Positions 3,213 to 40,593 of a stretch of DNA of 40,857 nucleotides are shown in pieces. This stretch comes from a virus. The position numbers and the translations under genes were made by a program. Under the pieces are notes generated by a model that was given only the letters and a program-made list of their open reading frames with translations, ran no database searches and was not told where the DNA came from. The DNA lies in IMG/VR virus record IMGVR_UViG_3300021438_000028, positions 1 to 40,857 of that record; one strand, written 5' to 3'. The first letter of the stretch is position 1. Each line of letters opens with the position of its first letter.

Positions 3213-3220
3213 GGTGATGT

Positions 3221-6234: not shown

Positions 6235-6963
6235 TTAAAGAGTTTCTTCTTCGCCTTCATCGGTGCTAGCATATTGTTCTTCGGTGTCATCGGTATCTAC
6301 CGATTCACTTGGTTCATTGCTGGCTTTATCGGTGGTGTCTAAGTCTAACCATGGCTTCATACCACCCATTAGTTTGACAAGTTTGCGTATTACTCTCGTT
6401 GTACGCATGCGAGTAGCGTCAGGGCTAACGAGCTCAAGCTCCTTGGCTATGTCCGCATACTCCATAGACTCTGCATATCGTAGGAAGAGTAACTGTTTAT
6501 CTTCAGTGCTTAACTTACGGTATGCGGAGTCTACTTCCACCATCATAGCCTGAAGATTACCACCTTCACTAGGTGCGCTAGGACGTCCTGGCCTACCAAG
6601 ATTAAGTTTATGAGTCACGCCCCACTCATCACGCAAGACAGCAGGAAGCAACGCTTCCACCACTACTGGGTCATAGTAATATAAATCAGAGACATCATAG
6701 CCAAGAGACTTGGCCTTCTGATACTGACAATAATCAAGAGCGTAGTTGCGAAGACTGCGATAAATAAGGTTCTTCGCGTCCTTACCACCCATCTCATTCC
6801 ATTCCATAAACTTATTCTCATGGGCAGGAAACCATTCATATAATGTCTGACGAATATCGTCAAGCTCAAGCATCTTAAACTTTCTATGATACTCGCTAGC
6901 TACATGGGTTACTGCATATTCCCAAGGTTCAATTAGTTTCCAGTCCATCATCAACTTTCTCAT
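6235..6963 (-). CDS. Sigma-70-like RNA polymerase factor, 242 aa
   Basis: The segment around residues 145-200 (LSTEDKQLLFLRY...YADIAKELE...RTTRVIRKL) reads as sigma region 4, a helix-turn-helix for the -35 box. The first 85 residues (DDIRQTLYEWF, YRSLRNYALDYC) resemble a diverged region 2. The last 35 residues are an acidic tail. It would let the phage direct RNA polymerase to its own promoters, perhaps the AT-rich late ones. The start at 6963 overlaps the upstream gene by 35 bases and has no clear binding site; ATGs at 6951 and 6948 are alternatives. It is the last gene of the leftward replication operon. Confidence 0.6.
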   Translation of the reverse strand: MRKLMMDWKLIEPWEYAVTHVASEYHRKFKMLELDDIRQTLYEWFPAHENKFMEWNEMGGKDAKNLIYRSLRNYALDYCQYQKAKSLGYDVSDLYYYDPVVVEALLPAVLRDEWGVTHKLNLGRPGRPSAPSEGGNLQAMMVEVDSAYRKLSTEDKQLLFLRYAESMEYADIAKELELVSPDATRMRTTRVIRKLVKLMGGMKPWLDLDTTDKASNEPSESVDTDDTEEQYASTDEGEEETL

Positions 6964-18404: not shown

Positions 18405-19059
18405 TGGTCATACCTTTCAGGGCAGTCATCCACTGTTCAAAATTGCCAGTGAACTTAAGGGGTCCGATATGGGCACAGGTCAGAGCAGGGTCAAGATAAA
18501 TCTTGAATCCACCATCTGCCAGTTTCTTGCAGGCAAGCACATCCTCAGAGATGATGTCGCCGTCTTGAATCTTTACTTCAAATACCCAGCGCTTATCTGC
18601 GCCGTTGTGTGTGTATGGCTCGCTAACATCCCATAGATGTTTAAACGCAGCCTTGCTCATACGAAGGAAGCCTGTGCCTAGCGCTTCTACCTCAATCAAA
18701 CCTTTGTCATTCTTGACTAGGTTCTCAGGCTTGCACTTAACCACATAGGATTCTTCAATAGACTTGCGAGGTGCTGTGCCACCGACTACATCTTCTTCGT
18801 AGGCGAGCAACTTAAGTAGCCACTCTGGGTTCCACTCCATATCAGAGTCAATCCAGATGATATCATCAAAGTTGTTCTCTACTGCAATAGCCAATAAATC
18901 GTTACGAGCACGCTGTACTAGCGCGTCGTAAGACATATAGACTGGTTGGAAGAAGATGTCGTTAGCCAACCCTAAGCGGATTGATTCCGCTAGGGAGTTG
19001 GCATACCACACATCAATTCTTCCATCGTAAGATGGTGTAGCAATTAGTACTTTACGCAT
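18397..19059 (-). CDS. Glycosyltransferase, GT-A fold, 220 aa
   Basis: The protein starts [12 protein letters not shown], and the sequence [12 protein letters not shown] contains the metal-binding DSD (71-73) of GT-A glycosyltransferases. [11 protein letters not shown] later fits the acceptor-side acidic motif. It transfers a sugar from a nucleotide sugar. It lies between the two Asn/Thr-rich fibre genes and overlaps one on each side, so fibre glycosylation is a reasonable inference; modifying a host surface polymer is the alternative. A second, diverged enzyme of this type is encoded at 23989-24702. Confidence 0.75.
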
Positions 19060-22000
19060 TTATTTGTCCCTTTAGTTCGTCTACCTGTGCTGCCAAGTCT
19101 TGGATAGCCTTGACAAGAATTGGAATGAGTCTACCTTGAGTAGCCTCTAGTTGGTCTGGATTGTCACGGTAAGTCAACTGCAGTCTATCAGCCATATCAA
19201 TAGCATCTTCGGCAGCCATTAAATCCTGAGCAATGAAACCAGTATCAGGTACATCTACCTTGCCACCGTCACGCATATTCCAGTCGAATGTAACTGGCTT
19301 CAATCCTTTGACAAATTCAAGACCCACAGCCAATGGCTGGATGTTCTTCTTGTCACGCTCATCAGATAGGGCGGTAATTGCGGTTACCTGGCATCGTAGG
19401 GTTGCAATGCTTGAGTTACCTAGCGTAATTGTGTTGGATACGGTGGCAGATGAAGTAGCGGCGGCGTTACCAATTAAAGTATTGTTGCTACCAGTTGTAA
19501 GATTATTGGTTCCAGTATTTCCAGCGCCGTAACCAAGTCCTGTATTGTTTGAACCTGTTGTAACGGAATATAAAGCATTTGCGCCTATGGCTGTATTTGT
19601 TGCACCAGTTGTGGTTGAAAATAACGCATAAGCGCCTAAAGCAGTATTACCTGCGCTATTTGTACTTGTAACTAATGCTTGACGACCAATGGCAATATTG
19701 TCTCCGCCAGTAACATTTGCATATAAAGCGCCTTCGCCAATACCAATATTGTTCAAACCAATAGTGTTTTTATTTACAGCATTTACACCAATAGCAATAT
19801 TGCGTTCGCCTGTGGTATTTTCATAAAGTGCAAGACCACCAACTGCAATGTTTGCACTACCAGTTGTTGTTTTATATAATGCATTATGACCAACAGCGGT
19901 ATTATATGTTGCCACTGTGCTTGATTGTAAAGCACTTGAACCAATAGCCTGATTATTAAGACCAGTTGTATTGGAAATTAAAGCATTAACCCCAATAGCC
20001 TGATTATCAGAGCCAGTTGTAGTTCCGTTCATTGCGCCTGAACCAATAGCAATGTTTGAATTTCCAGTAGTCAAAGTTTCTAATGGTGAACCAACAACTC
20101 CACCAACATAGGAACCAATAGCAATATTTAGTTGACCAGTTGTATTTGATACTAATGCTCTTTTACCTACAGCAATGTTTCCGTTGCCAGTTGTATTAGC
20201 AAGAAGAGCGTTAAATCCAATAGCGGTATTAGCATTACCAGTTGTGTTGGAATATAAAGCGTTTACACCAATAGCAGTATTTTCAACACCTATTGTGTTT
20301 GTTTGCATAGCGCTTGCGCCAACGGCAGTATTGTTTCCACCAGTTGTGTTAGATGCAAGTGAATAATACCCAACCGCAGTGTTGGAATTACCAGTAGTAT
20401 TGCCTACTAAGGTATAGTAACCTACACCAGTATTGTTTCCACCAGCAGTATTTGTATATAGTGAAGCGCGCCCAACGGCAGTGTTATTTACACCACTAAT
20501 ATTAAGACCCATTGCATATACGCCAATTGCAATATTATCAATACCAGTTGTATTTGCCTCAAGAGCGCTAGTGCCTATAGCAACATTGCGTGAGCCAGTA
20601 GTATTGGCTTTTAGAGTACTATTTCCAACAGCAGTATTATTAGTGCCAGTAGTGTTAGCATTAAGGGCAGTAGTTCCTAAAGCAGTATTGCTTGAAACAG
20701 AACCAGCACCCAAACCAACTTTGACTGTATTAATAAGTTGGTCATTAGTAAATGTGTTCTGTGCATCAGTCATTGCTGAGTTGATTACAGAGAAGGCTGT
20801 AAAGGTAATTACTTCAAGTACATCGCTTGCCACAAGAGCAGCAAGAGATGTGATGCTTGTTCCGTTAGTTGCTGTGTAATCTGTACCACGAACTAAAAGT
20901 ACACCGTTGAGGTATACCTGCTCTTTACCAGCAAGGTAAGAAAGTGTTGCACCGTTTGAGTCAGTTCCAGATACTGAGGTTTCTCCGCCAGTTGCAATAA
21001 ACTTATAGCGTGAGATGGCAGCAGTAGATGCAATAGACGCCCAGGCAGAACCTGACCAGGCATACATAGCATTGTCTGTTGTATTCCAGTAGATAGCACC
21101 AGTAAGAAGGGCGTTGCCATCATTGTCTACAGACGGAGCAGATGACTTAGCACCTAGGTAACGGTCATCAAAGTTGTCGTAAGTTGTAGCAGCAGCGGCG
21201 GCGCTTGCTGCAGCAGCAGTGGCAGAACCAGCAACAGCATCTACATACTGCTTAGTAGCAGCACCTAGGTTAACTGATGGGTCAGCATTGAGGACCAACG
21301 CTCCAGTCATTGTTGAACCAGACTTTAGAACCATTGCATCGTAAACAGAACCACCAGCAGAAATTGCTGTTGCAATCTCACCAAGGGTATCAAGTGTTGA
21401 TGGTGCTGAGTTAACTAGGTCTGCGACCTTTGTATCTACGTAAGCCTTGGTTGCTGCATCTGTGTTAGATGTAGGTGTAGCAAGGCTTGTAATCTTTTGG
21501 CTGTTTACAGATACTGCAGAAGTTGGCGCAGCCATCTGGTCTAAACGAGATGTGCGGACCTGTGTATCAAAGTCTGAGATAGTTGATGCTGTCTGTGTGC
21601 CTGTGTGATTTGCGCGAGCATAAGGGTCAGATACCATTTTTGCTGCAGTAATAGTACCGTTGGCAATATCTCCAGCAACGATAGTTCCATCTACAATATC
21701 TGCAGAGGTGATAGTTGCATTAAGGTCCAATTTAGTTTTAGCAATAGCAGCAGTTGCTGAGATGTCACCATTAACAATAGTTGCGTCAGCAATCATTGTG
21801 CTAGTTACTGTTCCAGTATCGCCAGTAGTTACGACTGTTCCAGTTACGTTAGGAAGAGTAATTGTACGGTCTGCTGTTGGGTCAGTTACTGTAAGAGTAG
21901 TTTCAAATGCATCTGCGGTTGCACCTTCAAAAACAATGCTTGAGTCGTTAAGGGTAAGGCCAGTAACTGTTGGGCTTGTAATTGTTGGTGTATCAATTGT

Positions 22001-22771
22001 TGGGCTTGTGCCGAATACTAGAGAACCAGAACCTGTCTCATTGGTAATTGCTGAGGCAAGGTTTGCGCTAGATGGTGTGGCAAGGAATGTTGCTACGCCT
22101 GTGCCAAGACCTGAGATACCAGTAGATACTGGAAGACCAGTTGCATTGGTCAGTGTAACTGAGGTTGGTGTACCAAGAACTGGAGTAACAAGAGTTGGGC
22201 TAGTTGATAGCACATTGTTACCTGAGCCAGTAGATGTTGTTACACCAGTACCGCCGTTGGCTACTGGAAGAGTTCCAGTCACACCTGTTGTTAATGGCAA
22301 GCCAGTAGCATTAGTCAGGGTTCCCGATGCTGGTGTTCCAAGTACTGGTGCTGTAAGAGTTGGCGAAGTTAAAGTTTTGTTTGTAAGAGTCTGAGTATCT
22401 GTTGTTCCAACCAATGTGCCAGAAACACCATGAACAGCAGAAGATGCTTCGATGTGGTTGTTGGCTTCTTGGTAGTCACGGCCGATAGCCATGTGGCGAA
22501 CTACTGCTCCAGCTGAGTGAGACTGCCCAGTTGAGCCATCAATGTTACGAGTAATTGTAAGGGTATTGCCAGATGAGTAGACCGTTACGTCTACAATTTC
22601 TTCAAGGGCTGTATCTGGGTCAATAACAACTGTATATGTTTCTGAACCACTGAGTGTCTTTCCACCCATAAGAGCTGAACCAGATACAACTGACATTGTT
22701 GTTGCTGTAGAGTTCAACGCTGATGTCAGGGTTGTCTGCTGTGAGCGTGAGGAGTATTTTCTAGTTGTCAT
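19052..22771 (-). CDS. Large tail fibre with 17-residue repeats and S74 chaperone domain, 1239 aa
   Basis: Residues 1-110 look like a virion attachment domain. Residues 125-300 repeat [10 protein letters not shown] and GTPxSxTLTNATG motifs, and residues 420-520 include [11 protein letters not shown]-type phage fibre segments. About 24 copies of the same 17-residue unit as in the smaller fibre follow from about residue 690 to 1100. The last 105 residues are an S74 chaperone with [10 protein letters not shown] and GFIAQDL. The DNA encoding the repeats is a degenerate 51-bp array, a likely site of unequal recombination. This is probably the main receptor-binding fibre. Confidence 0.85.
19480..20720 (-). 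repeat. Degenerate 51-bp repeats in the larger fibre gene
   Basis: About 24 tandem units of the same 17-residue motif as in the smaller fibre. Similarity between the two arrays would allow recombination between the genes. Boundaries are approximate. Confidence 0.7.
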
Positions 22772-26377: not shown

Positions 26378-27334
26378 CTAAGATGCGATTGATGAACCTG
26401 ATTCGATTCGGTATAGAGCTTCTTCACGGTAGCGTGCAAAGCCGAGTACGCCGTACCAACCCATTGGGCGGTGACGCATCAACTTGTCAACGACTGGTCC
26501 GATGACGACATGTGGCTCTTCAGCAACAGCTTCAGCAAGTGCCTGTGCTCCCGCTACGATTGTGCGGTAAACGCGTGCAGATGATGCACCGTCAGTTGCG
26601 TTGTAGAGACGTGGAGATTCTACGAAGAATGCGCCTTCGTAGTTTCCGATTTCTCCAGCCCAGATGCGGTCCTGTGTAGCACCGTACTGGTTAGGAAGTA
26701 GCCATCCAGCTGAACCTGTTTCAGCGCGGAGGTCATGTGAAACTTCTGGGTGTACACCAGCCCAGTAGAGTGAGCCCTTGCGAGCAACTGCGTTGCCTGC
26801 GCGGAGCTTAGCTACAGCCTTGCGGATGTTAGCTGATGAAAGTGTAGCAGCTGCAGTAACTGTAGCTGTTGATGTAGCAGTTGAACCTGAGTAGATTACG
26901 TTTGAACCACCACGAAGTGTTGCCATTGCAACCTTATCGATTGAGTCAGCAAGGTTGAATGCGATGATGTTAGCGATAGCTGGGTCAACATCTGCAAGTG
27001 AGAAGAGCTCAAGTGCACGTGTTACGAGAACTGAGTTACCGTACTCTGCAAGAGTAATGGTGACAGATGTTGGTGTAGACAATGCTACTGCATCTGGGTC
27101 AGCATCTTCTGTAAGTGTTGATGTTGCTGCTGTTAGGTCTTGGTAGCGCTGAAGCACTACTGTTGAACCTGGGATTGACTGGTTAGCTGGGCGCTTGTCG
27201 GCTACTGAACGAATGAGTGGTTCTGCACGAAGTGCGAACTCCAAGAGACGGTCATAAGCCTTCTGTACCAAACCAGCTGCACCAACTGTACCGCCCAGTG
27301 AGGACGAGCCTGTTGTTGTATATGCGTTTGCCAT
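26378..27334 (-). CDS. Major capsid protein, N4-gp56-like, 318 aa
   Basis: The sequence follows the N4-gp56-type major capsid family (HK97 fold): an N-terminal helix AYDRLLEFALRAEPLI, the strand block VTITLAEYGNSVLVTRALE, and the diagnostic YWAGVHPEVSHDLR...WAGEIGNYEGAFFVESPR near residues 190-240. It forms the capsid shell. It sits after the scaffold gene as expected. There is no obvious N-terminal delta domain rich in coiled coil; scaffolding is supplied by the separate upstream protein. Confidence 0.85.
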   Translation of the reverse strand: MANAYTTTGSSSLGGTVGAAGLVQKAYDRLLEFALRAEPLIRSVADKRPANQSIPGSTVVLQRYQDLTAATSTLTEDADPDAVALSTPTSVTITLAEYGNSVLVTRALELFSLADVDPAIANIIAFNLADSIDKVAMATLRGGSNVIYSGSTATSTATVTAAATLSSANIRKAVAKLRAGNAVARKGSLYWAGVHPEVSHDLRAETGSAGWLLPNQYGATQDRIWAGEIGNYEGAFFVESPRLYNATDGASSARVYRTIVAGAQALAEAVAEEPHVVIGPVVDKLMRHRPMGWYGVLGFARYREEALYRIESGSSIAS

Positions 27335-27360: not shown

Positions 27361-27843
27361 CTATGATTTTTGTTGTGAGAAGATTAGATTAATGAGCTCT
27401 TCCGAGTTTTGCGCTTGGTCGATTCTCATGCTCATGTCTTCTGCTCTGTCAGGTGTTAATGCACCCTGTGTGACAATGTCTTGCTGGCGTAATGCAGCTT
27501 TATTAATGTCACTTGATTCAGGCGCTTCCTGGCTTTGCTGAATCCCGAACAAGTCTCCGTTATCTTCAAGCCAGTTATTCACTGACTCTTCGTTAACTTC
27601 GTCTAGGTCCTTTAGGATTAGTCGTACTGCCTTAGGATTGACACCCTTCTTTTCTAAGACTTCCTTGACGGTGCGCTCACGCTGTCCCTTGGATAGTGTC
27701 TCAAGTTGTTCTGTGAGTTCCTTAATACGTTTCTCATCGGCACGCTTAGCCTTCCGCAACTGCTTTAGCAGATTGCTTCCGTCGCCTACCTGTGTTTCTG
27801 TATCGAGGTCATCGTCTTCTTCGTCCCAGTAGTTGTTGCTCAT
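27361..27843 (-). CDS. Scaffolding protein, 160 aa
   Basis: Acidic start (NNYWDEEDDDLDTETQ) followed by a charged coiled coil (residues 25-60, LKQLRKAKRADEKRIKELTEQLETL) and a Gln/Glu-rich helical end. This is the composition of phage scaffolds, and the gene lies directly before the capsid gene. I use ATG 27843, preceded by GAAGGGTGG; an upstream start at 27888 has no such site. It should guide prohead assembly and then leave or be degraded, possibly by the HslV-like hydrolase. Confidence 0.7.
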   Translation of the reverse strand: MSNNYWDEEDDDLDTETQVGDGSNLLKQLRKAKRADEKRIKELTEQLETLSKGQRERTVKEVLEKKGVNPKAVRLILKDLDEVNEESVNNWLEDNGDLFGIQQSQEAPESSDINKAALRQQDIVTQGALTPDRAEDMSMRIDQAQNSEELINLIFSQQKS

Positions 27844-27963
27844 AGCAACCACCCTTCTCTCTTGTTTGTAGTTCGCAGGCCACAACACATACTCGGGGAA
27901 GTATGCTGGCTCCTACTCTCGGTCTATTACACTGCACGGGGCCGATGGGTCCGTGTCAGGAAT

Positions 27964-29301
27964 CTAGAATTGTCCTGCGTTTGTTGGCTTGTTTAGATAG
28001 CCAGTAGAAAATGCTCCCTTGGCTGCTCCTGATGAGCCGCTGAATGCAGCGATTTCTGTTTCGCTTAGCTTCTTGCGGGTGCGCTGCGCTGAGGCAAGTT
28101 GATTGAATACATCTTGCTCCGCAGTAGACTGGTCATACTGACCAACCTGTCCGTAAATCTGGCTAAGCTTCTCAGCTGTTGGAAGGTAGTCAGCAATAGT
28201 TGCGTAACCCTTCTGTGCCATAGCTTGGTCAATACCTTGTGCAGCAAGCTGTTCAGATACTGCAACATCGGAACGCAGTCCTTGCTTAGCAGCAGCAACT
28301 CCAACTTCAGCTGCAGCAACTTGGCGTTGAATCTTTGTAATCTGCTGATTAGGGTCAAGCATATAAGCAACAGCATCCTTTGGACCAATGCCATAGTATG
28401 ACTGAAGCTGACTTAGCACCGCAGGGTCAGCGTTCTGTACACGTTGTGTCGCAATTGAAACTCTATCAGAGAGTTCCTTTGCTGATACATCGTTAGCAAT
28501 AAACTGCTGAACATAATCATCAGTTGAAAATTGTGTGAGGCCATAGCTTCGCAGAACCTGACGGTATCCGTCTTCGAGGTTGAGATACTCAGCTGGCTGT
28601 AGGACTTGAAGTCCCGCCTTGATGCGAGCATCGTTAGCTTTAAAGCGCATCTTATACTCATCGGTAGCTTGTAGACCAAGAGTAATAGTTGCTTCAGTTG
28701 CACCGTCTACCGCAAGTTCTTTAATCTTTGAAGCTAGAGAACCAAGGCCGTAAGCAGCAAATCGTGCAGTAACTACATCAATAGCAGACTGACGTGCTTG
28801 TTGTTTAGCAAGCGCATCAGCTGAAGCCTTCTGTTGGGCAGCAATTGTTGCAGCATTATTTGATGCAGTTAGTGCAGCTCTTGCTGCTGCAGCATCTTGT
28901 TCTGCTCGTACTCTTGCTGCATTTGCAGCTGCAAGTTCTTCTGCTGTCTTTGCTTTTGCTGCATCTGCTTCTGCCTTTACTCTTGCAGCTTCTGCTGCAG
29001 CGGCGGCTGCTTGCGCATCCCCTGCTGCTGCATATGCATTTCCTGCAGCCATGCTTCCAGAAACATATGGTTCTTGATAGTCTGGAGTATTACCAGAAAG
29101 TGGATTGTAAGGTGCAGGTACTGGGCTCATGTTGAGCAAGGCACGCTCTGTGTTGTTTAAGGTACCACCTGATGTAAGTTTTCTAAGTGCATCAGAAGCT
29201 GCGTTTACCGAAGATGCCTCTTGTGCTGCGCGAGCAGCTGCTGCTGCTTTTGCTTGGGCAACAAGCTTAGCATCTGATGGGTCAATGTCTGGAATTGCCA
29301 T
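27964..29301 (-). CDS. Alanine-rich coiled-coil virion protein, 445 aa
   Basis: ATG 29301 shares its A with the upstream stop; the frame open to 29316 has no better start. Residues 75-170 are an Ala/Glu/Lys coiled coil. Later segments (ITLGLQATDEYKMRFKAND, FIANDVSAKELSDRV, YYGIGPKDAVAYMLDP) form helical repeats resembling those in the two upstream proteins. It belongs to a block of large helical proteins between portal and scaffold, possibly ejected internal proteins. Confidence 0.65.
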   Translation of the reverse strand: MAIPDIDPSDAKLVAQAKAAAAARAAQEASSVNAASDALRKLTSGGTLNNTERALLNMSPVPAPYNPLSGNTPDYQEPYVSGSMAAGNAYAAAGDAQAAAAAAEAARVKAEADAAKAKTAEELAAANAARVRAEQDAAAARAALTASNNAATIAAQQKASADALAKQQARQSAIDVVTARFAAYGLGSLASKIKELAVDGATEATITLGLQATDEYKMRFKANDARIKAGLQVLQPAEYLNLEDGYRQVLRSYGLTQFSTDDYVQQFIANDVSAKELSDRVSIATQRVQNADPAVLSQLQSYYGIGPKDAVAYMLDPNQQITKIQRQVAAAEVGVAAAKQGLRSDVAVSEQLAAQGIDQAMAQKGYATIADYLPTAEKLSQIYGQVGQYDQSTAEQDVFNQLASAQRTRKKLSETEIAAFSGSSGAAKGAFSTGYLNKPTNAGQF

Positions 29302-30125
29302 TACGCTAGTCCCCAATCTCTAAGAACTTTGAGCGATAGCGTGTCCATTGTATCGCGTGCATTGTTTGTGTATTCCCATTCTTTGGAACTACGAAGTTCC
29401 TTTTCGAACTGCCAGATTGGCTTGACGTACGGCTTGCCATCTGGGCCAACATTCTGCAAAGCTTTGCGTAAGAATGGGTTGTTATAATCCACGGAGTCTG
29501 CATCAACCTCAAGGATATTTGCAATCGATGTACGATATGCTGATGCTAGAGAATCAAGGGAAGTACCCTTCATAATCTGGTCAGCGTATGCTGGGTATGC
29601 AGATGCGGCATCCGTTTTTACTTTGTCCTTCAAGTCATCAATTGTTGTATTGCCACTAAAGATATCAACTGACCACTTATCATATTGAGATGGGCTATAT
29701 GTCATTCCAAATGAATTAGCAAAAGTCTTAAGAGCATCTGCTGTTCCCAGAGCATCTCCACCTAGCGGAGTAGTTCCCTTGCCAGCCAATGCTTTAATAT
29801 CAAGTTGGTTGTCATCCCATCCACCGAGGTATGCTGCCTCTAGTGTTGCATCATCGATGTTCTTAATGCCAGCTGTAGTCAAGCGCTTGCGCTGTTGAAG
29901 CTTGTACTTCTCTAGATTATTGGCATAGATGCCAGGCTGTGATTCTTTCTGCAGCGTTCTATCACTAGATGTTACAGAGATATTCTTGTAATAGTTTGTT
30001 TGATAGTACTTTAACTTTGCTTCAGCTTCGTCCTTATTAGGACCATAGAGCAAGTCATATACTTCTTGTAGTTCAGGATACGCTTTGATGAGCGCAGCTG
30101 ATAAACCGAATGTTGTATCGGCCAT
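29301..30125 (-). CDS. Helical virion protein, 274 aa
   Basis: The C-terminal part (AYRTSIANILEV, PFLRKALQN, WQFEKELRSSKEWEYTNNAR, LSLKVLRDWGLA) is a pattern I associate with actinophage structural proteins near the tail or internal core. YKNISVTSSDR and LEAAYLGGWDD occur earlier. It starts at 30125, behind AAGGGGAT and overlapping the upstream stop. It probably forms an internal or portal-associated complex with its two neighbours. No enzyme motif is visible. Confidence 0.6.
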   Translation of the reverse strand: MADTTFGLSAALIKAYPELQEVYDLLYGPNKDEAEAKLKYYQTNYYKNISVTSSDRTLQKESQPGIYANNLEKYKLQQRKRLTTAGIKNIDDATLEAAYLGGWDDNQLDIKALAGKGTTPLGGDALGTADALKTFANSFGMTYSPSQYDKWSVDIFSGNTTIDDLKDKVKTDAASAYPAYADQIMKGTSLDSLASAYRTSIANILEVDADSVDYNNPFLRKALQNVGPDGKPYVKPIWQFEKELRSSKEWEYTNNARDTMDTLSLKVLRDWGLA

Positions 30126-30856
30126 TATCCCTTACCCCACTTTGCTAGTGTATCCGCAAAATCAATACTGTTTGCTTGCTGGATATCTGTTTGAACAGCG
30201 GCTCCGCCTGTTTCAATCTTCTTGTTAACTGCGGCCTCAAGGCGTGTCTGACTAAACTGTGGCGTATACTCAGAAGTCTTGCCAGTAGTCTTCTGTACTT
30301 GACCAGCATTAATCATCTTCTCTGCAAGCGCACGGGTCTCAGCTAGTTCATTAGCATTTGGGTCACGCTTGAGTTTTGCTTGATAGATAGCACGAATGCT
30401 TGCATCAATAACCAATGGGTCTTGCTTGAGAACTGTCTTGCTTGGACCAGTTGATGTTGTATCTAGGCCAGGAATTATATCTGCAGAGATACCCTTGTAC
30501 AGGTCCTGAAATGTCTTTGATGTATTGTAGATGTCGCCGTAGTCTACCGTCAAAACAGTCTTCAAATCTGTCTGAGTTTTAACTGACTTGCCAAGTTTCT
30601 TCATTAGTTTAGCAAGGACTGTCTTCTCTGAATTGGTAAGTCTGTCATATATTTCAGTTCCAGCACCAGGAAGGATACCTTGTGTGATTACATCTGTACC
30701 AGATACATTACGCTTTTCAAGGCCTGCTTTGATTTCATCAATCATCTGCTGATATGTCTTATCAGTTCCAGCGCCAGGCTTAAGGACTGTGTTTGTTCCT
30801 AGGGGAACTGATGGTACAGACGCAGTCTTACCTTTCGGACCTACTCTGTCAGTCAT
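30125..30856 (-). CDS. Helical virion protein, 243 aa
   Basis: Mixed Gly/Thr/Lys-rich N-terminus, then helices such as LTNSEKTVLAKLMKKLGK and IDASIRAIYQAKLKRDPNANELAETRALAEKM. The RDPNANEL segment resembles helical repeat units in other actinophage tail-associated proteins. It starts at 30856, sharing a base with the stop of the 1600-residue protein and preceded by GAGGGAG. The function is unknown beyond a likely structural role. Confidence 0.6.
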   Translation of the reverse strand: MTDRVGPKGKTASVPSVPLGTNTVLKPGAGTDKTYQQMIDEIKAGLEKRNVSGTDVITQGILPGAGTEIYDRLTNSEKTVLAKLMKKLGKSVKTQTDLKTVLTVDYGDIYNTSKTFQDLYKGISADIIPGLDTTSTGPSKTVLKQDPLVIDASIRAIYQAKLKRDPNANELAETRALAEKMINAGQVQKTTGKTSEYTPQFSQTRLEAAVNKKIETGGAAVQTDIQQANSIDFADTLAKWGKG

Positions 30857-33800
30857 TATTCTCCCTCGTAAACATAATCAAACTTGTCTTTAGCGAAGTA
30901 TCTATCATAGAACTTTGCAAAGTTAGTGTCTTGTAATTTGAATTGTGCAACCTTCGAACGCACCTGGTCCTGTAACCATGCTGCACGCTTTGAGTCAATC
31001 GTAGTTCCCATGGCATCAAGCTGTGCCTTGACTTCGTAACGGTAGTTAAGATAGTCAGTAATGACATGCCAGCGTGGATTCTTTGACAAATCCTTCCACA
31101 TGTTATCATCGTTAACAGCAATAGTAAGAGCGCGGACTGTAGCTGCCTGACGGCTAGCTGCGCCACCAAATGACTGTGCCTGGTATTCGTTGTACCACAT
31201 CTGATTAGCAGTCTTCTGGGCAGCAACATATTTGTCTTGCCACTGTGAGATGAGAGCTGAACCGTACTTATCAAGCGGGTTAATACCAGCCTTCTTAAGT
31301 GATTCAGTTACCACTGTCTCTACGGCAAAGAAGTCATTCCATCCCTTGGATACAATAGATGAACGGCTAGACTGGAAAGCATCTGCCACATCCTTGTACT
31401 TCTTATTAGTTCCAGGAATAGTTTTTGTCTGCAAGTAAGCCTGTGCTGCACTAGAGAATGCATAGTTATCATCGTTGAATACTGCACCAAGTACAGAGAT
31501 ATTCTTTTCGCCAACTGATGCTGCAATCTGCTGGACAACGTTTTCATTCTTACGAAGAAGTTCGGTTGCCGTAGCATCGCTTCGGACACCTGATGTGTTA
31601 TCTGTCAGTCTATCTGCAAGCAAGAAGTACTCAGGGAAATCTTCTATAAACTTCTCTTCGCCTTGGTCTCCAAACTTATCGTTATACTTGTTAAGTGTAT
31701 CTGCATAAGCTGAGATTGCTGTAGTATATCGTGGCTGTAGTGGCAAGAACATCGAAGAAGCAAAACGTAGAATCGCTAGTTGTAGTGACATTCTTTGAGC
31801 ACGTGGAGTAATGTTCTTTGCAAAGTATGCATCGCTAGGTTGGATGCCGTATTCTTTGGTATACTCTACACGTAACTGCTTATTAAACATATCTACATCT
31901 TTGTTGAACTGGTTTGGACCGCTCATCTTAAATGATGCAGCGAATAACTGGCCAGCTCTACGAGCAGTATTAAACGTAATGGCGTTTGTGCTGTTAGCCT
32001 GTACTCCAAATGGGAGCAACATCTGAGTCACTGAGTTCTCAATGTTTGTCTTCTTGGCAAACTCATTGAACGCAGCTGAGCCAATAGGTCCTAAAGATAC
32101 GATGTTTCCGCCAGTTGGGTTGTCTGGATTGAACCAGTCAAGTGGTAGACGGGCATCAAGACCAAGCATTGGCAGACCAACACTGATAGTCTTATTGCCA
32201 AACGCGTCTTCTTCTACGCTAGATACCTGCTCTGGTAGCGCTGCTACCTTGAGCTTCTTCATGATGAACTCTGGGTTCTCCATGGTAATACGTCCGTATG
32301 CGCGGAACTGCTCAATGACAGCAGGGAAGAATGCCATTAGGTAGTTAATAATACCGTTGTAGTTCATATCACGATGGAAAGAGTTAATCTTTTCACGGTA
32401 TTCTTTGAGCGCATATGCACGTGCATTGCTTTCAAAACGAGCCTTATCGGCCTGTGTTAACGTACGCTTGCTAGCGTTTGCCAACCATATCTGAGCCTGA
32501 AGTTCTTGTTCGTACTTAGCTGCGAAGTATGGGTTATTAGCAAGGAATGATGTTGGCTTTGTAGCAAGCCATGTAACACCGTTCTTCGTCATGCTACGGA
32601 AGTTTTTAGCGTACTCGCTGGTAGCCAATCCATCTTTAATCGCATCAGTAAATACTGGTGGACGAGTCTGGATATCTGGATAAAGCTTTTTTAGCTCTAG
32701 GATTGTAAGCTTATCTTCCAAGATTAACTTGGCAACCTGAGGGTTGGTAACATACATATCGACATATGCCTTGACTCTGTCATACACTTCAGGTGCATGA
32801 CGCAATGAGTCAGTAAATCGGTCTATGTAATTAAAGTTTTCTTTCTTGCGGAGCCATGCGACTCCTTCTTTCTTTGACTTGCCAGCGAGAATCTCTCGAG
32901 CTAGACCATCAAAGCGAATCTCATTATTGAGGATTGACTCCCACTCTTGCAAGTGGAGTTGTTCTTCCTGTGGTAGAACTGAGCGACTGTTACCACGAAG
33001 ACGCTTCTCGTTTGCAATTGCAAGTTCTTTTGTGCTAGCAAGAGCACGGCGAAGGTCAGAGTTCATGCTGACTTTCTGACGGAAGATATATCCAAAGCGT
33101 CCTTCTAGAGCGCCCTCGAATTCAACACCATCAACTTTAATCTTCTTGCTACCAACACGTGGCTCTTTGATGTCTGCAACCAAGTTAGCTTCTGTAGCAC
33201 GGAGCTTTGCAAGTTCCTGTGAGATAGCTTTTCTTGCTTCGACAGCATCTAGTACGTTATCTGGAATCTTCTTAGGTGGATTAGCAGGGTCATATTTAGC
33301 ACGCTTAAGCTGCTTATCTAATGATTCAAGTACCATTTCTCGGTCTTTAATACCCTGTGTAATAACTTTCATATTCTTACTAGGGTTAACCATGGCGCCA
33401 GCTAACTTGCGCACTCTGGCGACTGAAGGTTCAGCCTTATTCAATGACATAACTGTGTCATGACCTAGGTTCTTAAGCATATCGAATAGTACTAAATCTC
33501 CCCATCCACGGATGTAAGAGTCGCGTACAACGTTAATTGGGAAACCAGTACGAAGAAGCGTACCTGTACGCCACATAGAGTTAACTTCATCAGCAAGCCA
33601 GCTTACGCCGTCCTTAGCCATGTCAACGCCATCGATAACCTTTCGGGCTACTGGAACCTTTGAGACTGAGCCTAAGCGTTCTTTATATTCCTTGAATGCT
33701 GTATCTACAAACTTCCAGTCAGGTAGGAATCCACCGTTAGCAAGCTGTGTGATAAGTTGAGGGTCACCAATTACTGGACCAGCTGGATTCTGAGGGTCAT

Positions 33801-35658
33801 TCATGTAACCCTTTTTAGTTTCCTTAGATATTGCAGCTTCGTTCTTAATAAGTCTATGGTTGTTATTGTACTTCTGAATGATTTCTTCTACGATTACGCC
33901 AGGAAGTTCATACTTCTTACCAATAAGGCGCATGCCTTCTGCAGCATATGACTCAATAACATTGAGTTTGTCAACTTCTAGTACAGCACGTGAGTATTCA
34001 TTTGCAACCTTGAGGTTTAACTCAGGGATTGTAGCTCCATACTTCTCAGCCTGGCGTAAACTAGACTGAAGTCGTGTAGTTGCTACGATTGGGTCATTAA
34101 AGTTAATTAGTTGCTTAGGGGCATCATCTGTAATTCGGTCAATAAAGCGAATTGGTACAGATAGTGGGCTCTTCTGGTAGAATGTATTGTAGATTTTACC
34201 TACACCAGTCTCAAGAGCTGCAGTTCCTCGCTGTGCCAGTTTGCGTTCTGTAGCAACTTTAGCAAAGTCGTTGCGAATCTTCTCGACATAAGCCCAACGT
34301 GACACAGTACGGTCTTTAAGTTGGCTGTCTACTTCAAGTGCCTGGTCTAACCAACGAACTTCTTTGCGGAGTGAATCAATTTCTGCTTCAACTAACTTCT
34401 TGTTGTCAGTAAACTTTTTAGATGCTAGTAAAGTTTTACCATCAAACTTAAATGATGCAATTCCATCCTTTTCAAAGTATGTCATTGTATCTTCAAGGCG
34501 TGAAAGTTCTGCAAATTTAGCAGTGCTTTTTTCTGCTAGCTCATTTAGTGCTGCTGGGTCGCCATATCCTACGCGGTATAAAAGACCGAGGTCTTCTTTT
34601 GTGGCTCCAGCAAACAAATGTACTGATGCTTGACCAATTTCGCTGTCAAATTCTGGGCGACGGGCTGCAGTTACTGGGTCAGTATTCTGCAAAAAGTCAA
34701 ATACTGGGGTCATTGGTGTTTGTTCACCAGCAACGGTACGCTTGACCATGTCAATAGCTTGTGCCTGGCGCTCAGCTACACGTGTGATTTCACCTTCACC
34801 TGCAAACACTTTAGAAAAACCATGAATTGGTTCAGTGATTGGCTTAGTTAATAGTTTTGTGCGAGCAATGCCAGCAGTTTTAAATGCTGCCATATCTGGT
34901 CCGACACCAACTTCAAGAGCAAAGTTAGAAAGTCCCGAAACGATTGCACCGATACCCTTGGTATTATCGCCAAGAGTTTCCCATCCAGTAATGTGACCAG
35001 CAAGGTGGACTACATCGTTTCCAAAATTATATTTTTCTTGTCCCTGTTTTGTACTTGCATACTTAGCTGACTTGTTTAAGTCCTTGCTAATTTGCTTTCC
35101 AACGTCAGATGCAAGAGCTTTGCGCTCCGCTCCACCAAGTGCTGCTGCGCCTAGAGATGCTCCTGGCAATACACCAAGAGGTCCAGCTATTGCAAATCCA
35201 GCAACACCACCAGCCACTGCACCAAGTGCAATATTAAGACCAGCTAAAAAACCAAGACCAGCATTCTTATCGGCAACATCACGAACAAATGCATAGTTTG
35301 AACGTACTTCTTTTGCTCCTGCTTGAAGCAACTTGCTTGCTCCACCATTTGTGTGGTTGTCAATCGTGCGAACTGTAAGTCCTGCACCAACACCAGCTAC
35401 AGCCCCTACTGGTCCACCGACCATGAAACCCAAAGTTCCAGCAAGAATTTCTGGATTAGCTCCAGCAACATTTACAACAGTACTACGAACATCTTCGACT
35501 GTATTGTTCCAACCTCCAGGGTTGGCGGGAAGGTTGCTAGTCATGTCAAGATTAGCACCAAACTTCAACCCCTTCTGTAGAGAGGTATCATTTGGCGAGA
35601 CATTTGGAAGTGCTCCAAAGATTTTGTTGGCTCTCGCCATTGAGTCCCATAATGTCAC
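30856..35658 (-). CDS. Very large internal virion or ejection protein, 1600 aa
   Basis: The start is GTG 35658, overlapping the previous stop as GTGA and preceded by GAGGT. Residues about 60-185 contain three Gly/Ala-rich hydrophobic segments (FMVGGPVGAVAGVGAGL, GFLAGLNIALGAVAGGVAGFAIAG type) able to insert into membranes; the rest is mainly helical and polar. Size, membrane-active N-terminus and absence of a tape measure suit an internal protein ejected with DNA in short-tailed phages. I see no lysozyme or RNA polymerase motif. It is the largest gene in the window, between portal and scaffold. Confidence 0.6.
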   Translation of the reverse strand: MTLWDSMARANKIFGALPNVSPNDTSLQKGLKFGANLDMTSNLPANPGGWNNTVEDVRSTVVNVAGANPEILAGTLGFMVGGPVGAVAGVGAGLTVRTIDNHTNGGASKLLQAGAKEVRSNYAFVRDVADKNAGLGFLAGLNIALGAVAGGVAGFAIAGPLGVLPGASLGAAALGGAERKALASDVGKQISKDLNKSAKYASTKQGQEKYNFGNDVVHLAGHITGWETLGDNTKGIGAIVSGLSNFALEVGVGPDMAAFKTAGIARTKLLTKPITEPIHGFSKVFAGEGEITRVAERQAQAIDMVKRTVAGEQTPMTPVFDFLQNTDPVTAARRPEFDSEIGQASVHLFAGATKEDLGLLYRVGYGDPAALNELAEKSTAKFAELSRLEDTMTYFEKDGIASFKFDGKTLLASKKFTDNKKLVEAEIDSLRKEVRWLDQALEVDSQLKDRTVSRWAYVEKIRNDFAKVATERKLAQRGTAALETGVGKIYNTFYQKSPLSVPIRFIDRITDDAPKQLINFNDPIVATTRLQSSLRQAEKYGATIPELNLKVANEYSRAVLEVDKLNVIESYAAEGMRLIGKKYELPGVIVEEIIQKYNNNHRLIKNEAAISKETKKGYMNDPQNPAGPVIGDPQLITQLANGGFLPDWKFVDTAFKEYKERLGSVSKVPVARKVIDGVDMAKDGVSWLADEVNSMWRTGTLLRTGFPINVVRDSYIRGWGDLVLFDMLKNLGHDTVMSLNKAEPSVARVRKLAGAMVNPSKNMKVITQGIKDREMVLESLDKQLKRAKYDPANPPKKIPDNVLDAVEARKAISQELAKLRATEANLVADIKEPRVGSKKIKVDGVEFEGALEGRFGYIFRQKVSMNSDLRRALASTKELAIANEKRLRGNSRSVLPQEEQLHLQEWESILNNEIRFDGLAREILAGKSKKEGVAWLRKKENFNYIDRFTDSLRHAPEVYDRVKAYVDMYVTNPQVAKLILEDKLTILELKKLYPDIQTRPPVFTDAIKDGLATSEYAKNFRSMTKNGVTWLATKPTSFLANNPYFAAKYEQELQAQIWLANASKRTLTQADKARFESNARAYALKEYREKINSFHRDMNYNGIINYLMAFFPAVIEQFRAYGRITMENPEFIMKKLKVAALPEQVSSVEEDAFGNKTISVGLPMLGLDARLPLDWFNPDNPTGGNIVSLGPIGSAAFNEFAKKTNIENSVTQMLLPFGVQANSTNAITFNTARRAGQLFAASFKMSGPNQFNKDVDMFNKQLRVEYTKEYGIQPSDAYFAKNITPRAQRMSLQLAILRFASSMFLPLQPRYTTAISAYADTLNKYNDKFGDQGEEKFIEDFPEYFLLADRLTDNTSGVRSDATATELLRKNENVVQQIAASVGEKNISVLGAVFNDDNYAFSSAAQAYLQTKTIPGTNKKYKDVADAFQSSRSSIVSKGWNDFFAVETVVTESLKKAGINPLDKYGSALISQWQDKYVAAQKTANQMWYNEYQAQSFGGAASRQAATVRALTIAVNDDNMWKDLSKNPRWHVITDYLNYRYEVKAQLDAMGTTIDSKRAAWLQDQVRSKVAQFKLQDTNFAKFYDRYFAKDKFDYVYEGE

Positions 35659-36104
35659 AGAATGGACCTCAAATACGCAGCGTATTCTTTAGTGGTATCA
35701 CTTACGCCAGGTTGGTTTGCCCAGAATTCAATGGTCGGAAAATAATCACGAATCATTGCTTCTTCAGGGTCTGAAGCTTTTGCTTGAACTGGAAGATTTA
35801 AATCATTTGGGTTATTAGGCTGACCATATGGTGTTAAGCCAGCAAGTACGTTTTCTTCAGGGTTTGCTGTTTTATCCGTAATAGGAGTTACAGGAAGTGG
35901 TGTAACTGTGCTCGTAGCTCCAGGCGTAGATGCTGTTGACTTAACAGCTTTGTCACCTTCGCTGATTTGTGCATTGATTTGCTTGTTCTGCCCATAAGCA
36001 AAACCTTTATACTGACCAGATTGTCCAGCTCCGCCAGTACCTGAAACATTGGCAGGATTGTTCTGTGGTGCTGTTGGACGCATTCCTCCGCGGTTCTCAG
36101 CCAT
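35655..36104 (-). CDS. Low-complexity structural-region protein, 149 aa
   Basis: The first 110 residues are Gly/Asn/Gln/Thr/Pro-rich and likely unfolded. The last 40 (AMIRDYFPTIEFWANQPGVSDTTKEYAAYLRSIL) form a compact helical end, a plausible binding peptide for the portal or the giant neighbour. ATG 36104 follows TAGGAGGAACT. No family is recognised. Confidence 0.6.
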   Translation of the reverse strand: MAENRGGMRPTAPQNNPANVSGTGGAGQSGQYKGFAYGQNKQINAQISEGDKAVKSTASTPGATSTVTPLPVTPITDKTANPEENVLAGLTPYGQPNNPNDLNLPVQAKASDPEEAMIRDYFPTIEFWANQPGVSDTTKEYAAYLRSIL

Positions 36105-36112
36105 AGTTCCTC

Positions 36113-36682
36113 CTACTTAGTAAATTGTATTTTAGTAATGATTGGGCCACTTGTATAAATGTCCCACTCTGTTGCAATCTCGATTGCTTTGCGAATTAGC
36201 CTTTCAGCTTGAGCAGCATTTTGTACATCATCGATACCAAGTGCAGCCATAGCCCCAAGAGCAATCGTGCTACCAGAGCCAGCGTAATAGATACCACGTA
36301 TATCGCGGTCCCAAGAGTAATCCTCAAAGATAGGATAAACAGTTCCACGAATGCTGACAAGAAATTGCGAATCATGTGAAGCGGCGTCCCCGTCCTCTTT
36401 CATATCATACCCTGCATCAATGAATGCTTGACGCATTGATGGTATAAATTTTTGTGTCATAAAGACATCTAGGTTTTCGTTTGCTGTAGGCTTAGGAGCT
36501 TTCCATCCAAACTGTAGTATGTTTGAACCTCTGCCTGCGCCAGAGCCAGCAATAAGAGCTCCATTGTTTTCAACAATTTTATGTGTGGCCATGTTCATTG
36601 GACGGCCATCTTCGTCAGAGCTACGAGAATCGCAACCCATTACAACCCAGCCATCGCCTTGGATAGCAGCTAATGTTGTCAT
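36113..36682 (-). CDS. HslV/proteasome beta-like Ntn hydrolase, 189 aa
   Basis: After removal of Met1 the N-terminus is TTLAAIQGDGWVVMGCD, close to HslV: Thr1 nucleophile, D17 at the exact HslV position, and K34 beside the usual K33. AGSGAG and YYAGSGSTIALGAMAALG match the conserved Gly loops, and EIATEWDIYTSGP matches the HslV end. No HslU-like ATPase is encoded nearby. It lies between the portal and the large virion proteins, where phages normally encode a prohead protease, so a capsid-maturation role is plausible. A modifier of host proteolysis is the alternative. ATG 36682 follows GTAGGGGACA. Confidence 0.8.
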   Translation of the reverse strand: MTTLAAIQGDGWVVMGCDSRSSDEDGRPMNMATHKIVENNGALIAGSGAGRGSNILQFGWKAPKPTANENLDVFMTQKFIPSMRQAFIDAGYDMKEDGDAASHDSQFLVSIRGTVYPIFEDYSWDRDIRGIYYAGSGSTIALGAMAALGIDDVQNAAQAERLIRKAIEIATEWDIYTSGPIITKIQFTK

Positions 36683-36696
36683 TGTCCCCTACCTAA

Positions 36697-38466
36697 CTAT
36701 CGACGACGAATAGTACGTACGCTTGCTGTTGGTGTTCCTCCGCCAGAAATACCAGATAGCAAACTCATGACATCAGGTGGTGCTTGTTCTGGTGCCATAG
36801 GGGAAGCGCCTCCTGCTGGAACGCCTTCAGGAGCAGGGGACGGTTGCTCAACCGATTGTGGTGCCCCAGCAGGAGGAACTGGTTGCTGCTGTGGGGCGAA
36901 GATGTCTGCGACGACTTCCTCTATTGCCTGTCCCTTTTGGCGTGCCTTGATTACAGCAGCAATCTGACGCACTACTTCAGAAGCGTCCTGGCCTTGCATT
37001 GCCATCTGTGGTATCGCTTGAGAGAGTGCAGTAATGGAACCAAGAAGTGAATCTCTCATCTTCTCGATTTCAATCTTTTCTAGTTCTTGGGTTACGTTAA
37101 CCGTGAATGGAAGTTCACGCATTGCCATATCCTTAGAAATAAGCCCTCCGCCAAGAGCCTGAAGCATAAAGATAAGTCCTTGTGCAGGGTTTAATCCTGC
37201 CAACATTCCGTAACGCACATCAGCAGAATAGTCCTGCTTGATATCCTTAGAAGGCTTATAGACAACTTCGTATGGTGAACCTGAGTCCACACCGCGAATT
37301 GTCTTTTCTTCTGGGTAAATCATTTCGTCAACTTCAAAGCAGAGCTTAATTACATCACGAAGTGACGCAGCAAAGATAGCTTGAGCTGACTTGACCTGTG
37401 TATCAAATGCTCCCATTAGAGCTTGTACACCTTGGCCTGTAACGATAGATGCATTTACGTTACCTGTACGAGATTCAGGATAACGAGCACCAACGCGAAG
37501 TTCTTGGTTGAGCAATGTCTGCTCAGTGAATGCGCCTTGTGGTAGGTTAAGGTCTACACGGCGTACGCCAGCTGGGTTCGCTGTACGAATGACAGCGTCT
37601 CCACCGAGCTGAAGTTCTTGTACATCTTGTGGAAGTACGATTGGAGCTTGTACAGATTTCTCTGCAGCTTCCATAGCAAGCAACGCGAAGCGGTTGCGAA
37701 GAAGTTGAATACCGAGTACATCGTCAAACTGACCACGAAGTTCACCATCGATAGATGGTTTACGTGCAACAACAACCATCATCTTGCCGAGTGGATTCAT
37801 AGCTCTAGATAGAACTAGGTCATTCTTTGACGGAATGTAAATGACAGACTGGTCTTTATCGTAGTAACGAATCAGTTCAATCTGCGCATTTAAGTCCTGC
37901 TTGTAACCTTGAGGTCCAAGCAGTTGGCTATCGTACTCTGGGAACTGTGTGCACAATTCTCCAAGAGTCATCATGTAGCGCTTAGCAAATGCAACACAAC
38001 GTCCATAGCGGTCGAACTCTGGGTAAGCACCCACTGGGTTTTCTATGCGGATACGCGGTAGCTTTGCTTCCTCATCCAGTTCAATCATGAACGGAAGGAA
38101 ACCATATGTCAAGTACCAGTCAGCACCTGAGTACATTTGTACTGACAGGTCTGAGTGCTGGAAATAGTTAGATGCAATACGAGTGCGCTTGTCAGCAAAC
38201 TGGCGTGCTCTATCAGATGTCTGGTTGGCAGCTGAGCAGTTTACTGCTGGAAGCGGTGCCATAACTTCAGACAAGTCGCGGGCGACAATGTCAATGAAGT
38301 TTGCAACTACGTTAGCATCGACTCCTGATGGAAAGAAGTCAGGATATACTTCTGCAATTTTACCTTTACGGACAGCAAGAACATCAAGGTTACGTGCATC
38401 GCGTTCGTGGTTACGGTAGCGCAGCGATTGAACGCGAGCTGCAACCTGTTCCATTGATAATGCCAT
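36697..38466 (-). CDS. Portal protein, 589 aa
   Basis: Size, position after the terminase and sequence features fit a portal. The N-terminal part carries NHERDARNLDVLAVRKG and a wing region with YLTYGFLPFMIELDE. The central stem helices follow LLRNRFALLAMEAAEKS. A TGQGVQALMGAFDTQVKSAQ segment comes next, and a Pro/Gln-rich tail ends the protein. It forms the dodecameric DNA gate at one capsid vertex and docks the terminase. ATG 38466 shares a base with the upstream stop. The disordered last 90 residues (PPAGAPQ) are an extra tail. Confidence 0.85.
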   Translation of the reverse strand: MALSMEQVAARVQSLRYRNHERDARNLDVLAVRKGKIAEVYPDFFPSGVDANVVANFIDIVARDLSEVMAPLPAVNCSAANQTSDRARQFADKRTRIASNYFQHSDLSVQMYSGADWYLTYGFLPFMIELDEEAKLPRIRIENPVGAYPEFDRYGRCVAFAKRYMMTLGELCTQFPEYDSQLLGPQGYKQDLNAQIELIRYYDKDQSVIYIPSKNDLVLSRAMNPLGKMMVVVARKPSIDGELRGQFDDVLGIQLLRNRFALLAMEAAEKSVQAPIVLPQDVQELQLGGDAVIRTANPAGVRRVDLNLPQGAFTEQTLLNQELRVGARYPESRTGNVNASIVTGQGVQALMGAFDTQVKSAQAIFAASLRDVIKLCFEVDEMIYPEEKTIRGVDSGSPYEVVYKPSKDIKQDYSADVRYGMLAGLNPAQGLIFMLQALGGGLISKDMAMRELPFTVNVTQELEKIEIEKMRDSLLGSITALSQAIPQMAMQGQDASEVVRQIAAVIKARQKGQAIEEVVADIFAPQQQPVPPAGAPQSVEQPSPAPEGVPAGGASPMAPEQAPPDVMSLLSGISGGGTPTASVRTIRRR

Positions 38467-38712: not shown

Positions 38713-40593
38713 CTATCCGTAGTTTTGAACCCATTGCTCTGCAAAGGCTTCGTCTAAATTGATTGAACCGCGAGACGACATCTGATGACGCGTAGCCCAT
38801 CGGTTTGATTGGTACTGGCCAACTCTTGATGTGTTCTGCATTAACTCGCGTACACGAATGATTGCAAACCACAGAGCCATTACAGTATCTGTAGGGTTCT
38901 TTGTGTCAGGCTTCCAAGTAATCAGTTGCTGTACAAGGGTCTTGATTCCCTCAGAGCCTTCGTTACTTGGTATCTCCATGATGTTGTTATCTTGGAAACG
39001 GCCGTCACGTGTATTACCAAACAGCATAGCCATAGATGCTACACCGAAAGAGGTGTCCCACTTATTCTTGCCAGTAAAGTGTGAGTTTAACTGGCAGCCA
39101 TATGAGGCTAAAAAGTTTCTTAAGTTCTCATCCAGGGCGTAAGCCTTCTGGTGAGCGTTGATTTCAATACGCAGTTCCTGAGGACGGTACTTCTCAACCC
39201 AGTCCTCAATCAAATGCTGAATTTTGTCAGGTGATGGCTCAGTCATATTGACGCAGTCAAGAATATAAATTTTGCCGTCAGCCTTGTTGTATGTAACTAC
39301 AACTGCACCTGTTGCTCCCTGCATAGCAGGGTCAAGTCCCATGATTGTATAACTACCATCGACAGCTTTAGGATGTCCAGGTGCGCCAGGCTTTAACGGT
39401 CCACGTTTACGCATTCCGTTGACGCTTCCTGCAACGCAGGTTGGTGAGAAGATTGAATCTTCTGTGACGTCTTCTTGCTGGTAGACCATAGCCCATACTG
39501 ACGGAGAGACCTGAGAGCGACGCTTAGAGAGCGAGGGTCCATCCCACTTGGGGTAGTTCCCATTGGGTAGTGGGTCATCTTTTGCATTTTCCTGTTGGTC
39601 AGATTCAGGCCAAAGTGTTTTCCACTTCTCTGGCTTTTCGTCAAATTCTAAAACTGCTGGCATAGCGCAATATGTGAAAGGCGCTACTCCACCAGACCAC
39701 TGACCTGGGTCGCGGAGCATCTTGTAGAGGTCCACGGGCGCGACACGGGTTCCTACGATAATTAGTTTTCCGTGCCGCCCCAGGCGTGTGATAACTTCCT
39801 TTTGGAGCCACTCGAGTTGTTTTTCCCACTCATGGGCGTTAGCTCCCATCACGGCGTCATCAACGATAATTAAGTCAGCGCGAGCACCGTAAATCTGAGA
39901 ACCCATACCAAGGGCTTGAACGGTAGGGTCTTTCTCGCCTGAGTCACGTCCCGTACCTAGGTAAATCATATCAGCAGACCATTGTGTTGCATCGGCCTTG
40001 TATCCGCCGTTAGGACCGAAGGCCGTCTGCAACTTAATATATGCTGGGTGTGAAAGTCTTGTCTTAATCGCCCCAAGGAACTTGCGGGCCATACCTTGCG
40101 TCTTAGAGACGATGATGACTCGCATGTTGGGGTTGGTCACGATTTTGTAGGTGACATAGTTTGTGGTGATGGTAGTCGACTTGGCGTGCTCAGGTGGCAC
40201 GTTAATCAAGACTCTGTCAGGTTCGCCTGGCTCGTAGGTCATACCAGCTGGCATCCAGCGTGGCTCTAGGCCTTCCATCATGTCCAGCCAGTTGAGCTGG
40301 TGGGGGAAGAGCTTTGAATCTAGGAACTGCTCACAGAAGGAGACGAAGTCGATATCTTTGAGTTCAGCTAAGTCAGTCTTGACGCCTTTGCCTTCCAGGC
40401 GGGCCTTGTCGGCTCGCTCCTTGAAGTCGGCATCTGAGGCGCACCATTGACGGAAAGTCACGTCATTGCGGCCCACGGTACCCATAGCGGTAATTACGGT
40501 AGCACCCTGTGCTAGCGCCATCAGGACGCGCTCTTGGGCCTCGCTCTTAGGGATGTCTTGTTTCCCTGGCTTTCTACCCATCAGTTGTCCCAT
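38713..40593 (-). CDS. terL: Terminase large subunit, 626 aa
   Basis: The ATPase motifs are PPEHAKST (133-140, Walker A) and LIIVDD (241-246, Walker B with catalytic acid). The nuclease part shows IMGLDPAMQG, LRIEINAHQK and a final Asp in TDTVMALWF, the RNase-H-like triad. It packages and cuts phage DNA. Residues 15-65 (QERVLMALAQGATVITAMGTVGRNDVTFRQW) look like the DNA-binding helix-turn-helix of small terminases, and no separate TerS gene is visible, so both roles may be fused. It is the first gene of the leftward late operon; ATG 40581 is a possible later start. Confidence 0.9.
   Translation of the reverse strand: MGQLMGRKPGKQDIPKSEAQERVLMALAQGATVITAMGTVGRNDVTFRQWCASDADFKERADKARLEGKGVKTDLAELKDIDFVSFCEQFLDSKLFPHQLNWLDMMEGLEPRWMPAGMTYEPGEPDRVLINVPPEHAKSTTITTNYVTYKIVTNPNMRVIIVSKTQGMARKFLGAIKTRLSHPAYIKLQTAFGPNGGYKADATQWSADMIYLGTGRDSGEKDPTVQALGMGSQIYGARADLIIVDDAVMGANAHEWEKQLEWLQKEVITRLGRHGKLIIVGTRVAPVDLYKMLRDPGQWSGGVAPFTYCAMPAVLEFDEKPEKWKTLWPESDQQENAKDDPLPNGNYPKWDGPSLSKRRSQVSPSVWAMVYQQEDVTEDSIFSPTCVAGSVNGMRKRGPLKPGAPGHPKAVDGSYTIMGLDPAMQGATGAVVVTYNKADGKIYILDCVNMTEPSPDKIQHLIEDWVEKYRPQELRIEINAHQKAYALDENLRNFLASYGCQLNSHFTGKNKWDTSFGVASMAMLFGNTRDGRFQDNNIMEIPSNEGSEGIKTLVQQLITWKPDTKNPTDTVMALWFAIIRVRELMQNTSRVGQYQSNRWATRHQMSSRGSINLDEAFAEQWVQNYG

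Follow-up and report, generated by a model that had tools for sequence, protein, structure and literature searches.

Organization of the head module

The window, meaning the whole 40,857-nucleotide stretch of DNA analysed here, is a 40.9-kb virus record (IMG/VR IMGVR_UViG_3300021438_000028) from a freshwater actinobacterial phage, with portal and capsid proteins 81-88% identical to those of LanE43AprE7 and LanE43AprF5 (E7 and F5 below), cultured phages of 'Ca. Planktophila' (PMC10202952). The window also encodes a WhiB-like regulator (4708-5094, plus strand) and a sigma factor (6235-6963, minus strand), which are marks of freshwater actinophages. The packaging and head genes are as follows:

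38713-40593, minus strand: terminase large subunit (phrog_38, E = 7.6e-66)
36697-38466, minus strand: portal protein (phrog_104, E = 1.4e-30)
36113-36682, minus strand: proteasome-fold N-terminal-threonine hydrolase, 189 aa (PHROG 1040)
35655-36104, minus strand: p3, 149 aa, directly after the hydrolase gene (phrog_8200)
30856-35658, minus strand: putative internal/ejection protein, 1600 aa, so assigned from its size and position
27361-27888, minus strand: putative scaffold protein (strong match to phrog_7813, weak match to a scaffold family)
26378-27334, minus strand: major capsid protein, N4-gp56 family (TIGR04387, E = 4e-35; phrog_1357, E = 6e-80)

The hydrolase gene, the limits of which were confirmed exactly, follows the portal gene and precedes the scaffold and N4-gp56-family capsid genes. 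PHROG and Pfam scans gave no meaningful family match for the 1600-aa protein, the size and place of which are common to Beephvirinae; homologues of p3 also occur there, with profile hits in 71 Beephvirinae-like loci. The putative scaffold gene occupies the same place as the annotated scaffold gene of phage Dennebes.

A sequence-only reading of the window had noted the absence of HslU or any other unfoldase, and of any recognisable prohead protease (U9, U35 or ClpP-like). Both observations stand: among the window proteins scanned, no HslU-like or AAA+ unfoldase was found, the sole AAA-type ATPase being DnaB/AAA_25-like, and no U9, U35, S14 or other known prohead protease was detected, in the head module or beyond it. 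The sole other peptidase domain among these proteins is a self-cleaving Peptidase_S74 chaperone domain, located in the first of two long repeat-rich tail proteins with similar ends (16953-22771, minus strand; the second was judged by eye). Elsewhere, at 1890-4075 on the plus strand, the gene for a 440-aa amidoligase (PF12224) has directly behind it one for a 284-aa protein resembling class-II glutamine amidotransferases. The latter is itself a hydrolase of the Ntn type, and the two form a possible peptide- or protein-modifying pair.

Family, active site and predicted fold of the hydrolase

The hydrolase belongs to PHROG 1040, 'peptidase HslV family' (E = 1.5e-21, residues 1-184), and scores narrowly above the threshold of the Pfam Proteasome family PF00227 (23.4 bits, cut-off 22.4). 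The family name HslV does not hold, as the protein falls far below the HslV equivalog cut-offs of NCBIfam (NF003964 and TIGR03692; 23.2 bits against 137, and 22.4 against 157.75), and among solved folds BPH is nearer than HslV. Searches of genome contigs with two alignments gave no match to cellular kin. The translation start and the residues of interest are encoded as follows:

36686-36690, minus strand: Shine-Dalgarno motif AGGGG, inside the 14-nt gap between the portal stop codon and the hydrolase start codon
36677-36679, minus strand: Thr1 codon, the residue being exposed once the start Met is removed; kept in 232/232 full-length relatives
36629-36631, minus strand: Asp17 codon; kept in 232/232
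36578-36580, minus strand: Lys34 codon, aligned with catalytic Lys33 of HslV and the proteasome in profile alignments to BPH and HslV; kept in 232/232
36539-36541, minus strand: Gly47 codon (oxyanion hole, a role taken from PMC8665760); kept in 232/232
36371-36415, minus strand: acidic loop AGYDMKEDGDAASHD, after the second helix, at the BPH/proteasome pore-loop position as assigned by topology

The active site described from the sequence alone (Thr1, Asp17, a Lys at position 34 beside the usual Lys33, and Gly loops, which are in common with HslV) is therefore intact. T1, T2, D17, K34 and G47 are all kept in the 232 full-length relatives from the same slot, and D17 and K34 are invariant across distant phage homologues as well, so that the loss of catalytic residues named beforehand as a refuting observation was not seen. 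When a profile of the relatives is aligned over its full length with BPH and HslV, Thr1 and Asp17 match their counterparts in position, and Lys34 pairs with the catalytic Lys, offset from Lys33 by one loop residue. A Shine-Dalgarno motif lies near the hydrolase start in 225 of 227 relatives, with a portal-hydrolase spacing of mostly 14-15 nt, and the median dN/dS is ~0.12, indicating purifying selection. Given this value and the complete active site, the hydrolase appears to be active and under selection.

Structure prediction, proposed as a check, gave a confident proteasome fold for the monomer (AlphaFold, pLDDT 86.6, pTM 0.84). The best solved fold in a Foldseek search was BPH (5ovs, TM 0.75-0.77), with HslV next, and a profile of the hydrolase relatives matched BPH 5ovu over its full length (E = 1.9e-11). 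Helices are predicted at residues 50-59 and 71-89, followed by a low-pLDDT loop, which corresponds to the acidic loop and has a mean charge of -4.1 across the class. The prediction for a class-2 enzyme (see below) was too low for use (pLDDT 56.6).

A fold of this kind need not imply degradation. Monomeric ligases such as connectase are known on proteasome-like folds (Fuchs et al. 2021, PMC8665760), and standard substrates elicited no activity from purified BPH (PMC5777263), so the phage protein could be a specific processing enzyme or ligase. However, it is devoid of the insertion that connectase carries between its third and fourth strands, and its predicted structure contains both pairs of helices, like the homologues that form barrels. 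A non-degradative function is considered improbable.

A fixed slot behind the portal gene

The position directly after the portal gene, noted from the window alone, proved to be general in its clade. The 80 closest enzyme relatives in IMG/VR, chosen by the enzyme, all have the gene directly after the portal gene (80/80), and the same holds for 75 of 78 loci chosen by the portal and having enough sequence. The slot is nearly invariant across portals down to 68% identity. The main text of papers on freshwater actinophages makes no mention of HslV or a protease; phage proteasome homologues as such have already been described, and it is the fixed position of the gene, together with the exchange of alleles there, that is new. 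A small acidic protein of 72-86 aa and no known family lies just behind the enzyme in 78 of 222 loci, covering all three enzyme classes (e.g. L231:2540-2800, L232:4886-5146, L109:1106-1345); it is missing in the window, and is retained where the enzyme is lost.

Within the window's clade the gene is fixed behind the portal gene, whereas homologues in other isolates lie outside the head genes, next to whiB, thyX, dhfr or phoH, and none of 82 Beephvirinae-type loci has the enzyme (see below). The closest relative in an isolate, that of DSL-LC01, is 38% identical and adjoins whiB.

The near-invariant place beside the portal suggests a tie to morphogenesis, and is a point against an accessory role. 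It is in line with the proposal of the sequence-only reading that the enzyme may be a maturation protease acting on scaffold and capsid, and with the wider one of a protease in the U9/U35/S14-type slot that trims or degrades scaffold, capsid or large internal proteins during head assembly, since the gene sits between the portal gene and the internal-protein, scaffold and capsid genes, in a head module where no other protease was found. The comparisons below bear on this proposal.

Exchange of enzyme classes within the slot

Three enzyme classes, mutually 30-48% identical, occupy the slot beside portals up to 94% identical, and the portal tree requires at least 14 class changes. For example, loci L015 and L133 share 93% identity in the portal, 94% in the scaffold and 92% in the capsid protein, and only 29% in the enzyme. 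Swap breakpoints lie at the edges of the enzyme gene: L191 and L197 are 85.6% identical in DNA through the portal gene to 24 nt inside the enzyme gene, and the similarity returns over the final ~20 nt of that gene. In the cultured phages E7 and F5 the enzyme is of another class than in the window.

Raw correlations between enzyme class and neighbouring genes track overall relatedness and were for this reason set aside, only portal-corrected values being used. After correction for portal identity, the class showed no covariation with TerL, capsid, p3 or the large protein, and weak covariation with the scaffold (+1.3 identity points; permutation p 0.026, uncorrected), a point in favour of a prohead protease. 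At the level of sequence, coupling of the enzyme to scaffold or capsid substrates is thus not apparent. A promiscuous chamber protease, on the other hand, need not covary with its substrates, so the free swapping leaves capsid components possible as substrates of such an enzyme.

The region from p3 to the scaffold (27361-36104, minus strand) is highly mosaic in the window and its relatives; the large protein alone shows 13 classes in 71 dereplicated loci, with p8 and p9 close behind in variability. This mosaicism of adjacent genes would suit a neutral cassette that brings no steady benefit. Such a cassette is already largely refuted, and can be regarded as very improbable, by the dN/dS value, the complete active site in all 232 relatives and the presence of the enzyme in 75 of 78 loci.

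Free swapping would also fit host-directed cargo that is packaged alongside the adjacent internal proteins and enters the next host by ejection, there to degrade early host or defence proteins; by position and size, p3 and the ~1600-aa protein resemble internal or ejection proteins. Yet the enzyme class shows no covariation with the large protein, no packaging signal is seen, and a ring of ~12-14 subunits may be too large for ejection unless it passes as monomers, making this route unlikely.

Loss of the enzyme, and relatives without it

In three loci (L231, L232 and L233) the portal gene is followed directly by a gene for an 86-aa protein, and the enzyme is absent from the slot. They form one clade nested inside enzyme-bearing loci in the portal tree. 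The 86-aa protein was considered as a replacement and rejected, since loci of all three classes commonly have it next to the enzyme on the downstream side, and the three loci therefore show a deletion. The 30.5-kb record G002, which contains L232, has no PHROG 1040 match; because it is a fragment, the enzyme could lie in the unsequenced part of the genome. Its capsid protein is 89% identical to that of the window from residue 1 to 317 of 318 aa, full length with the N-terminus included; its scaffold is 71% and its terminase 79% identical.

Among more distant relatives are the Streptomyces Beephvirinae, which build the same kind of head. These phages, with portals ~40% and capsids 52-54% identical to those of the window, have small ORFs between portal and p3; the enzyme was found in none of 82 Beephvirinae-type portal loci and in none of the nine whole records checked. 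Abafar, which belongs to this group, is viable as a virulent podovirus (PMC11536984). In Bacillus phage Pascal, whose capsid protein is a more distant member of the same family, none of the genes from portal to capsid is annotated as a protease. The enzyme is accordingly not kept wherever the cognate capsid is kept, as seen in the G002 fragment and in Beephvirinae.

These observations weigh against a prohead protease. The enzyme is swapped and lost with the capsid protein unchanged, the capsid protein of the relative without the enzyme keeps its N-terminus, and in Beephvirinae and Pagevirus, sharing the same capsid family, no protease was seen in the head module; the contexts of the isolate homologues outside head genes point the same way. 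An obligate prohead protease is disfavoured, and a morphogenesis protease remains a minority reading, rather unlikely though less so than ejected cargo.

Proposed role

Because its class is swapped or dropped while the capsid proteins stay unchanged, the enzyme is favoured as an accessory one and not the capsid's own maturation protease. The reading adopted, held with about even confidence, is that of an ATP-independent, BPH-like threonine peptidase, with host or defence proteins as likelier targets than the capsid. The alternative offered by the sequence-only reading, that of a phage component altering protein turnover in the host, would agree with all the observations.

In the proposed mechanism, the protein would work like BPH as a group-I proteasome homologue: a threonine peptidase of small size, whose Thr1 is exposed and whose pore loop is acidic. 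It would be translated from a late packaging/head operon, right behind the portal protein, would probably self-assemble into a ring chamber, and would act as a peptidase independently of a dedicated ATP-driven unfoldase. Its most likely targets would be host or anti-phage-defence proteins, or else unfolded proteins cleared late in infection. Recombination in the conserved genes on either side would pass classes between phages that circulate together. A role late in infection or facing the host, perhaps directed at host or defence proteins, is suggested by the place in a late operon and by the diversity that has been maintained.

A more far-reaching and tentative proposal is that selection driven by hosts or rivals maintains three anciently diverged alleles at a single locus in an abundant phage clade, and that these encode an ATP-independent degradation chamber for counter-defence or host takeover, made late and possibly present in the virion. 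A fixed and widespread context comes together at this locus with alleles swapped in nature and one natural case of loss, and the phages concerned are those of a dominant order of freshwater bacteria. Since E7 and F5 share the slot and their host is in culture, what a viral proteasome homologue does becomes open to experiment.

Comparison with known systems

BPH (PDB 5ovs, 5ovu; PMC5777263) provides both the best solved fold and the best full-length profile match. Both proteins begin with Met-Thr and have no propeptide, their Asp17 and Lys are in register, and both have a longer acidic loop at the pore-loop position and no partner unfoldase; the last two features make BPH the best working model. 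By contrast, BPH is chromosomal and located in stress-linked operons, and the two are just 16-21% identical in structure alignment. Hallmarks of BPH are a tetradecameric double ring and a Thr1 that reacts with epoxomicin; for the phage enzyme, ring assembly is a proposal. HslV shares the catalytic Thr1/Asp17/Lys, the Gly loops and the compact group-I fold, but has HslU as its partner and a shorter loop than the acidic loop of the hydrolase, which also scores far below the HslV cut-offs.

Prohead proteases of the U9, U35 and S14 types share the head-module location with the hydrolase; they have another fold, and the hydrolase is not conserved along with the capsid protein. AAH and PPH were described by Fuchs et al. 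(2021) as group-I proteasome homologues in phages, without a known AAA+ partner; no AAH was reported in actinobacterial phages, and the genomic context of the new homologues gave no hint at function (PMC8665760). PPH has ~140 residues and is missing helix H2, and the hydrolase, with 189 aa and both predicted helices, is not a member by length or helices. Phage counterparts are the PHROG 1040 proteins of DSL-LC01, pT24, Geobacillus phage E3, Moorella phage MTATph1 and Vibrio phage 166E36-1, which have the same family and active-site residues; their genes lie outside the head genes, whereas that of the window is fixed behind the portal gene.
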